Below, one piece after another: positions 30,820-32,596 of a stretch of 64,000 nt of DNA (position 1 is its first letter; each line of letters starts with the position of its first letter). Source of the DNA: [Bacillus] enclensis (GTDB taxonomy: Bacteria; Bacillota; Bacilli; Bacillales; Bacillaceae_B). The stretch is taken from positions 124,001 to 188,000 of the forward strand of contig NZ_KQ758486.1 in the NCBI RefSeq assembly GCF_001456935.1, given 5' to 3'. Both the position numbers and the translations under genes were made by a program. Under the pieces are notes generated by a model that was not told the origin of the DNA, ran no database searches, and saw only the letters and a program-made list of their open reading frames with translations.

Positions 30820-31293
30820 ATGCCAAAGGGAGAAGGCAAACTCATTGCCCAAAACAAAAAAGCACGCCATGACTTCACAGTCGAAGAAACATACGAAGCG
30901 GGACTCGTCCTCCAGGGAACCGAAATCAAAGCCATCCGTGCCGGACGCGTGAACCTGAAGGATTCATTCGCACGCATCAGAAACGGCGAAGTCTTCGTTC
31001 ACCACATGCACATCAGCCCGTATGAACAGGGAAACCGCTACAACCACGAACCGCTTAGGACACGCAAGCTCCTTCTGCACAAAAAGCAAATCAGTAAGCT
31101 GATCGGCGAAACGAAGGAAGCAGGCTACTCGCTCGTACCATTGAAACTCTATATTAAAAATGGTGTAGCAAAACTTCTTATCGGCCTTGCCAAAGGTAAG
31201 AAGAAGTATGATAAGCGTGAAGATCTGAAACGCAAAGAAGCAAATCGTTCTATCCAGCGTGAATTGGCACAAAGACAAAAGGGAATGTACTGA
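30820..31293 (+). CDS. smpB: SsrA-binding protein
   Basis: A 157-residue OB-fold protein that binds the tRNA-like domain of tmRNA and places it in the A site of stalled ribosomes. Conserved blocks: NKKARHDF near residue 10, [51 protein letters not shown] and a basic tail [19 protein letters not shown]. The ATG is preceded by AGAGGGGATC. ssrA follows by 131 bp. Confidence 0.97.
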
Positions 31294-31424: not shown

Positions 31425-32064
31425 GGGGACGTTACGGATTCGACAGGGATAGTTCGAGCTTGGGTCGCGAGCCGTAGGGATCGTCTACGTTAAAACGTCA
31501 AAGCCAATAATAACTGGCAAATCAAACAATAACCTAGCTTTAGCAGCGTAATAGCGCTTTAGCTGTTCCTCCCTCCATCGCCTATGTGGTAGGGTAAGGG
31601 ACTCACTCTTAGTAGGCTACGCCGGATTCCACCGTCTGAGGATGAAGGAAGAGATTAATCAGACTAGCTGCATGGACGCCCGTCGATAGGCAGAAATTGC
31701 AGTGAACTCGCGAATATATCGACTACGCTCGTAGACGCCTAAGTGCCGATGTTTCTGGACGTGGGTTCGATTAGTAATTAGTCGCCTTATGTGGCAACAC
31801 ATAAGTGAAAATTTGGCTTTATCGGTGAAACCTAAGTCACACACAGTGTGATATGGCAATGCCGAGCGGTATGTGGAGTAATCCAACAGCCGTGTATCGA
31901 CTTATAGGCTGCCATCCTGGCAGTACTAGGATGCGGGATCCTGTCTGACATCAGATAAAATCTATATTCCGCATAATACGCCAAAGGACCTCTGCTACAC
32001 AGGTTCAAGATATAGTCAGTGCCATGTCGAAAGCATGGAAGTGCACGTCCCACCGTCTCCACCA
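31425..32064 (+). ncRNA. ssrA: Transfer-messenger RNA, interrupted by a group I intron
   Basis: tmRNA rescues stalled ribosomes and tags the nascent peptide for ClpXP. The mature 5' end GGGGACG (31425) pairs with CGTCTCC (32054-32060), and CCA is encoded. The exons are 31425-31771 and 32048-32064 (364 nt joined). The tag frame starts at the resume codon GGC 31516 and encodes GKSNNNLALAA, with tandem stops TAA TAG at 31549-31554; the first Ala comes from the charged tmRNA. The T-arm GTGGG-TTCGAT/T-CCCAC is split in the loop by a 276-nt intron, so the gene needs splicing to become functional. Confidence 0.95.
31772..32047 (+). mobile_element. Group I intron in the tmRNA T-loop, without ORF
   Basis: A 276-nt insert splitting the T-loop of ssrA. 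The 5' exon ends in U and the intron ends in G (the terminal guanosine rule of group I introns). The CGAU at the exon end can pair with GTCG (31781-31784), giving the U-G pair of P1. A P2-like hairpin CTTATGTG-GCAA-CACATAAG has a GNRA loop (31786-31805). Core-type segments are GGTGAAACCTAAGT with TCACAC-ACA-GTGTGA, ATGGCAATGCCGAGC, and CAGGTTCAAGATATAGTC, which resembles the S/P7 region of subgroup IA introns. CCATG/CATGG near the end fits P9. It contains no endonuclease frame. Confidence 0.92.
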
Positions 32065-32090
32065 AATACATATTTGGTGGTTTTTATTTT
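32059..32090 (+). terminator. Terminator of ssrA overlapping the mature CCA end
   Basis: CCACCAAATA (32059-32068) pairs with TATTTGGTGG (32071-32080), then TTTTTATTTT. The 5' arm takes in the last six nucleotides of mature tmRNA, including the first two acceptor-stem pairs and CCA. Confidence 0.9.
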
Positions 32091-32179: not shown

Positions 32180-32596
32180 TTATAAATTGAAAAACCCTTC
32201 TTCAAAATCCATTTTGCGTTTTAAACACTCCTTACTGTACTTTCCATTTCGCTTTGTAACTTTGTTATAGTGCTCAAGAATCCAGGCTGCCCGCTTTTTC
32301 TTTTTTTCTACCCTTAAATAGGGTGTCACTTCTTTTAGAATATTTAGGACATTATTTTTATTCTTTATTGTAAACGAGTATGAGTTTAAATGTCTGGAAG
32401 GGTTATAGTTCTTCTTTTTGGAGATATGACCGGTGGTTAATTTTTGGATGTATTCAAGAAGTTCTAAATCTGTGGACGCAATCGAAATACACGGTCTCCT
32501 ATGTTCATTTTCATGGATGCGGGTAAGTGTTATGGATCCTTCTCCATCGATAATACCTGCTAAATAGGCAGCTTCCCAATCCTTCAAATTTATCAT
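32180..32596 (-). CDS. Single-motif LAGLIDADG homing endonuclease
   Basis: A 138-residue protein with one LAGLIDADG motif, YLAGIIDGEG (residues 11-20), whose Asp/Glu would bind the catalytic metal; single-motif members act as homodimers. The remainder (ISIASTDLELLEYIQKLTTG, SYSFTIKNKNNVLNIL, YLRVEKKKKRAAWILEHY) has the beta-rich DNA-reading layout and a basic tail. It lies outside the ssrA intron, 115 bp past the tmRNA end and antisense to it. The ribosome site is weak (ACAGGGG close to ATG). Lower GC than neighbours. It may have mobilised the intron. A maturase role is less likely given its position. Confidence 0.88.
   Translation of the reverse strand: MINLKDWEAAYLAGIIDGEGSITLTRIHENEHRRPCISIASTDLELLEYIQKLTTGHISKKKNYNPSRHLNSYSFTIKNKNNVLNILKEVTPYLRVEKKKKRAAWILEHYNKVTKRNGKYSKECLKRKMDFEEGFFNL

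Follow-up and report, generated by a model that had tools for sequence, protein, structure and literature searches.

Group I introns in the T-loop of tmRNA, the RNA needed for rescuing stalled ribosomes, were reportedly described by Williams in 2002. Collaborative homing of F-CphI and the psbA intron is said to have been reported by Zeng, Bonocora and Shub in 2009, and in phage T4 the enzyme mobE, reportedly of the HNH type, is said to bring about trans homing of the intron with the defunct I-TevIII. The homodimeric LAGLIDADG endonucleases I-MsoI and I-CreI are encoded inside rRNA introns of algae.

The portions of a recent survey considered here (Nawrocki, Petrov and Williams 2025, PMC11915505) cover 883 intron-form tmRNA sequences, mainly from Bacillota and with four T-loop subsites of insertion, the introns averaging 293 bp in 843 founding sequences. 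Endonuclease genes occur in 36 of the 883 introns; among 23 that were placed, 19 lie in P7.1 and four after P9. The survey remarks on this low fraction, a homing endonuclease gene (HEG) being carried by 4.1% of tmRNA introns versus 54% of archaeal rRNA introns. Collaborative homing has been described from phages, in the sections of the two papers drawn on here (PMC6083498, PMC3984707). In cyanophage S-PM2, the gene of the free-standing endonuclease F-CphI adjoins the intron-bearing psbA, and the intron blocks self-cleavage (same sections of PMC6083498).

The locus described here lies in a 64,000-nt stretch of the [Bacillus] enclensis genome (the window, meaning the whole stretch that was analysed). 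Its features are the following, in window coordinates.

30820..31293, plus strand: smpB, the gene of the tmRNA partner, upstream of ssrA (PF01668, 210 bits); context and host marker
31425..32064, plus strand: the whole split ssrA (tmRNA) gene, from the Rfam match, the acceptor and T-arm, and the tag frame
31425..31771, plus strand: ssrA 5' exon, running to the T-loop TTCGAT (RF00023); counterpart of nt 1-347 in the uninterrupted 364-nt genes of relatives
31516..31551, plus strand: tag reading frame GKSNNNLALAA and stop, from translation
31772..32047, plus strand: group I intron of 276 nt without an endonuclease ORF, from RF00028, empty sites, the P3/P7 core and covariation
32048..32064, plus strand: ssrA 3' exon (TCCCAC, CGTCTCC, ACCA), from the sequence; flank common to the genus except three members with CCCTC
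32059..32089, plus strand: terminator-like hairpin, CCACCAAATACATATTTGGTGG and a T run, overlapping the tmRNA 3' end; read from the sequence and similar across the genus
32180..32596, minus strand: free-standing LAGLIDADG HEG, 138 aa from ATG or 135 aa from TTG at 32587 (PF14528, PF00961, I-MsoI match)

The original prediction was that ssrA is split in its T-loop by an ORF-less group I intron of 276 nt that follows a U and ends in G, leaving a spliced RNA of 364 nt. The split is confirmed by a match to the Rfam covariance model of tmRNA (RF00023, 31433-31773, 143.5 bits, E 3.8e-57, gathering score 47) and by continuous genes in relatives. All 36 genomes of the genus have ssrA, which is split at the same T-loop position in 22 and continuous in 14, with a length of 364 nt (363 in G034). 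These empty sites, along with the usual U before the intron and G at its end, place it at 31772-32047, so the predicted ends were right to the base; exons of 347 and 17 nt give a spliced RNA of 364 nt, the foreseen length and that of the continuous genes. As read from the sequence, the acceptor strand GGGGACG (31425-31431) pairs with CGTCTCC (32054-32060), followed by ACCA up to 32064. The frame GKSNNNLALAA is presumably the tmRNA tag, from its likeness to known Bacillus tags. The second intact ssrA that had been raised as a counter-case was not found in the 4.48-Mb genome (G000, 18 contigs), where the next best of 15 hits reached 28 bits against a cut-off of 47. ARAGORN, run on the window, reported no tmRNA. 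The 3' CCA is not encoded in several ssrA genes, with or without intron (e.g. L120, L131, L150, L187; L091, L093, L094).

Comparison with Rfam by Infernal, which had been proposed along with the prediction, also detects the intron, with an Intron_gpI (RF00028) match at 31762-32038 of 38.1 bits and E 4.5e-7, below the gathering score of 50. A distant member, L200, likewise falls short of it at 46.7 bits; the gathering score is a threshold of the library and not a defining trait of group I introns. An alignment of 46 introns, 22 of the genus and 24 of the order, was built from fetched loci with a parsed 3' end (G042, with no parse at this end, was left out). RNAalifold gave most helices, and P3 and P7 were written as a pseudoknot; the resulting 75 pairs are paired in 99.3% of cells. 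Changes on both sides occur in 33 of the 75, none of 500 shuffles reached the observed values, and slid versions of the structure pair at 33–38%, in a test biased in favour of the structure since this was partly derived from the same alignment. P7 is invariant, and covariation therefore speaks neither for nor against it. All 46 introns have both the U-G pair at the 5' splice site and the G before the 3' exon; no P10 pairing was identified. Two hairpins, P7.1 and P7.2, lie between P7 and P3, which we take to suggest subgroup IA.

The predicted 276-nt group I intron is thus upheld by the RF00028 match and by a covarying core with the P3/P7 pseudoknot. Intron length ranges from 270 to 282 nt across the genus, and no endonuclease-profile match was found in any reading frame of 100 such introns. 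The prediction was also right that T-loop ssrA introns are known in bacteria; its view that shortness and lack of an ORF set this one apart does not hold, as introns inserted here are usually short in the portions of PMC11915505 considered. In gene, T-loop insertion, size, absence of an ORF and occurrence mainly in Bacillota it resembles the introns described there, and taken alone it is a member of an already described kind. An unusually long tmRNA intron, of about 425 nt and without a match to the HEG profile, was observed in L181 (G181).

The more informative part of the locus, overlooked in the original prediction, is the endonuclease gene, convergent with ssrA and with its stop 115 nt past the ssrA 3' end. 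The product matches the family profiles PF14528 (32.3 bits, cut-off 22.5) and PF00961 (31.3 bits, cut-off 23.1) and has the motif LAGIIDGEG, in which D17 and E19 are invariant among 21 sequences. The TTG start at 32587 follows GGGG by some 9 nt, and relatives are 135 aa long in most of those listed. The best PDB match by sequence is I-MsoI. A structure model (pLDDT 78.1, pTM 0.67) has I-MsoI, I-Vdi141I and I-CreI as its top Foldseek matches, with a probability of 1.00 and a moderate fold match (TM about 0.5, rmsd mostly 5–10 Å). I-MsoI and I-CreI are encoded within their introns, whereas the HEG here lies outside the intron and on the other strand. The HEG is under purifying selection, with a median dN/dS of 0.12 (15 pairs with dS <1.5). 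A public protein set holds 671 relatives, and among the 120 of 671 that were listed, those with names come mostly from genera that we take to be Bacillaceae. A phage or plasmid vector was considered and rejected: among 50,697 phage records, matches were confined to two phages (three records, 32–41% identity), and 72,556 plasmid records gave no match.

The HEG is closely linked to ssrA. Within the genus, a match is present in 11 of 36 genomes, always just downstream of ssrA and on the opposite strand. In the order, 50 of 397 drawn genomes have a match at E 1e-10. Outside the genus these number 44, of which 32 have the HEG no more than 2 kb downstream of ssrA, all convergent, and six have it on the ssrA contig at 6.6–43 kb downstream, again convergent; none lies within 2 kb upstream, one is 454 kb off on the other side, and five are on other contigs. 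Genus and order together gave 119 parsed loci in a survey of the downstream side of ssrA (G232 and G215, without a parse, were left out), 48 of which have a full or partial HEG match, every one of them (48 of 48) on the strand opposite to ssrA. Among 254 genomes drawn from the phylum, four matches fall outside the order, and all four adjoin ssrA convergently. L200 and L201 have a full-length HEG and the intron; L202 and L204 have a partial HEG beside a continuous ssrA. The T-stem differs in these four loci (AGGGG/CCCCT), indicating that the partnership does not depend on a particular stem sequence. In G422, a second, partial HEG copy (L205, G422:C12:50762-50932) was seen about 6 kb from the full-length copy beside ssrA.

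Large insertions part the two genes in some genomes (L210 in G208, L211 in G297, also G414 and G163). In G208 and G297, the stretch separating ssrA from the HEG holds, near the HEG, genes for a TnsA-TnsB fusion, a TniB/TnsC-like ATPase and two TniQ proteins, and a Mu-transpos_C match was found in the interval in four of five such genomes, being absent in G331. Ends of the TGTGAC type beside ssrA, with inverted counterparts next to the HEG on the side facing ssrA, were recognised by eye in L071 (G114), L080 (G331) and L088 (G175), and imperfect inverted-repeat-like ends, also by eye, in G208. The 3' flank of ssrA thus resembles a place where Tn7-like transposons attach. That the HEG is itself cargo of such an element is disfavoured, because the transposition genes (G208, G297) and the inverted ends (G114, G331, G175 and, imperfectly, G208) lie on the ssrA side of it. 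No copy of the ssrA end was seen beside the displaced HEGs in five loci. In G175, where ssrA and the HEG are 454 kb apart and in the wrong orientation, there was perhaps an inversion between two TGTGAC-type ends.

Collaborative homing of the tmRNA intron through the adjoining LAGLIDADG enzyme is the best reading of this locus and, in our judgement, a probable one. The tmRNA precursor would splice itself through the group I intron in the T-loop, and the free-standing enzyme would cut intronless ssrA at the insertion site or close to it. The intron, often together with the adjacent endonuclease gene, would then be copied during repair from an intron-bearing allele. As the intron would break up the cut site, the enzyme's own chromosome would be protected and the intron kept for as long as the enzyme is active; once the enzyme gene has decayed, the intron could be lost again. 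Splicing, DNA cleavage, the exact cut site and transfer by repair are all steps that we infer.

The intron and the HEG tend to occur together. A covariance model of the T-arm and the 5' part of the intron detected it in 91 of the same 397 genomes drawn from the order. One of these, G154, has a weak match (34 bits, G154:C2:4439-4521) away from its standard ssrA, whose T-arm is also standard; this match is probably not ssrA and was not fetched as a locus. Both elements are present in 45 of the 397 genomes, the HEG alone in five, the intron alone in 46 and neither in 301 (Fisher 4e-28, descent ignored), and 25 of the 28 genera with the HEG are also genera with the intron (descent ignored). Wherever a full-length HEG lies beside ssrA, the intron is present (31 of 31); 28 of the 31 are free of stops, and G033, G035 and G184 have one in-frame stop. 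A partial HEG beside ssrA is accompanied by the intron in 16 cases and stands without it in five (p 0.008, descent ignored). Uninterrupted ssrA genes have at most a HEG relic (G003, G377, L202, L204, and G056 on another contig) or a divergent relative with an open frame (G292, 0.7 kb from ssrA; G351, 8.8 kb; G148, on another contig). The base before the insertion point is C or G in G292, G351, G148, G377, G056 and L202, and T in G003 and L204. This pattern is expected if the intron shields its own ssrA and decay of the enzyme has to precede any loss of the intron.

An enzyme that persists in the absence of the intron is another possible reading of the divergent relatives, which also fit an alternative in which the HEG spreads alone into the 3' flank of ssrA by intronless homing, cutting another nearby site, while the intron hitchhikes in the repair tract. 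Homing of this kind is known for free-standing HEGs located between conserved genes, according to the sections of PMC6083498 used here. Such a mode would not predict the intron beside every one of the 31 full-length HEGs, however, and we regard it as unlikely. A different role for the protein, in aiding splicing and not mobility, must also be weighed. LAGLIDADG maturases exist, the fold matches of the model include the bifunctional I-AniI and the bI3 maturase, and a maturase would likewise account for co-occurrence and purifying selection. Nevertheless, the protein seems dispensable to the intron, as 46 of the 91 intron-bearing genomes have no HEG at E 1e-10. The invariance of D17 and E19 and the scattered distribution of the intron, which calls for mobility or much loss, also speak against a maturase, an explanation to which we give very little weight.

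Within the genus, intron-bearing genomes are dispersed across the host tree. On a tree of the 1.3 kb upstream of ssrA, its state changes 10 times over the 36 genomes; with the 13 continuous genes that have no relic, 10 changes compare with a shuffled mean of 10.7, and 206 of 500 shuffles are as low. The genome of the window, with both intron and HEG, is sister to G002, with neither. In a tree-paired comparison across the genus, the HEG changed in step with the intron in an average of 4.2 cases and against it in 0.2, the direction expected under collaborative homing but not significant with seven supported pairs differing in intron state (median p 0.125).

Pairwise distances at 29 loci with a full-length HEG were compared by rank correlation (five loci without an smpB match were dropped, none of them among the 29). 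The correlation of intron with HEG is 0.66, that of intron with smpB 0.40 and that of HEG with smpB 0.39; with tmRNA, the values are 0.50 for the intron, 0.49 for the HEG and 0.54 for smpB. Given smpB, the partial correlation of intron and HEG is 0.60, and none of 999 permutations was as high. The intron and the HEG thus track each other beyond the host gene, pointing to a history common to both and not to smpB. No signature of co-conversion was found in tmRNA distances, which in pairs differing in intron state are about those of agreeing pairs (G016 was left out of this comparison). This weighs against collaborative homing, as do the 46 of 91 intron-bearing genomes without a HEG at E 1e-10, the 44 of 78 parsed intron loci in which a closer local search downstream of ssrA still found none, and the three divergent relatives with open frames in genomes whose ssrA has no intron.

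These data bear on a further explanation, in which the intron is old, vertically inherited and lost many times, and the HEG is a bystander of a busy ssrA 3' flank. Loss probably does happen, as suggested by HEG relics beside uninterrupted ssrA (G003, G377, L202, L204), and counts of intron-state changes cannot tell gain from loss. Yet inheritance with loss leaves aside the history that intron and HEG share beyond the host, the purifying selection on the HEG, and the concentration of whole-genome HEG matches at ssrA and with introns. We consider it highly improbable.

The insertion site was compared across genomes. In 11 of the 14 continuous genes of the genus the T-arm is exactly that of the window minus the intron, and the other three have a C at -1 and GAGGG/CCCTC. 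An empty T-arm identical over its 26 nt was found in 51 of 397 genomes and a degenerate T-arm pattern in 283 of 397; C replaces the T at -1 in most of the degenerate matches listed. Taking the 51 empty sites together with the intron-bearing genomes, about 90 of 141 genomes with the exact T-arm are occupied. Exon flanks are near-identical in 99 of 100 intron loci. This was dropped as proof of DNA recognition, as most of the intronless genes listed have an identical stem but another base at -1; U at -1 is the usual splice-site rule, and the T alone thus does not demonstrate recognition by an enzyme. A palindromic target was also rejected, the joined T-arm site being weakly palindromic, with an unconvincing 6 of 11 pairs at the best centre.

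Collaborative homing can be extended, more tentatively, to a two-piece selfish element across Bacillota that holds ssrA hostage. Loss of the intron would then be lethal or costly since an uninterrupted ssrA would be cut, which would account for the lack, in this sample, of any intact close copy of the HEG beside one. The intronless ssrA genes listed commonly have C instead of T at -1, and this change might be host resistance to the intron, perhaps also to cutting. We see this extension as a possibility somewhat short of an even chance.

Like F-CphI and psbA, as presented in the sections of PMC6083498 used here, the locus pairs a free-standing endonuclease gene with a neighbouring gene that contains a group I intron. 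It differs from that system, in which an Endo VII-type enzyme accompanies a protein gene of a phage, in joining a LAGLIDADG enzyme to a chromosomal RNA gene of bacteria, in many genera. In the portions of PMC11915505 considered, HEGs are counted inside the intron and a HEG beside the gene, as here, is not mentioned. Among the papers listed by searches of the open-access literature, into which most subscription papers do not fall, none described an endonuclease gene beside tmRNA introns. As with what is said of T4 mobE, a phage system, the enzyme proposed here would move an intron in trans. What appears to be new, judging from sequence, is the combination, seen across many genera, of an intron in a chromosomal RNA gene with a convergent HEG neighbour, an arrangement resembling collaborative homing. 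To our knowledge, this would be the first case of such homing in a gene of that kind.

The locus also carries a warning for annotation, as the split ssrA was missed by ARAGORN here and a survey of HEGs limited to the intron would miss the partner. Sister species with and without the intron open homing, loss and host resistance to test. The portions of PMC11915505 considered leave open how tmRNA introns spread; if the proposed homing is true, a neighbouring enzyme gene would explain this for many Bacillota.
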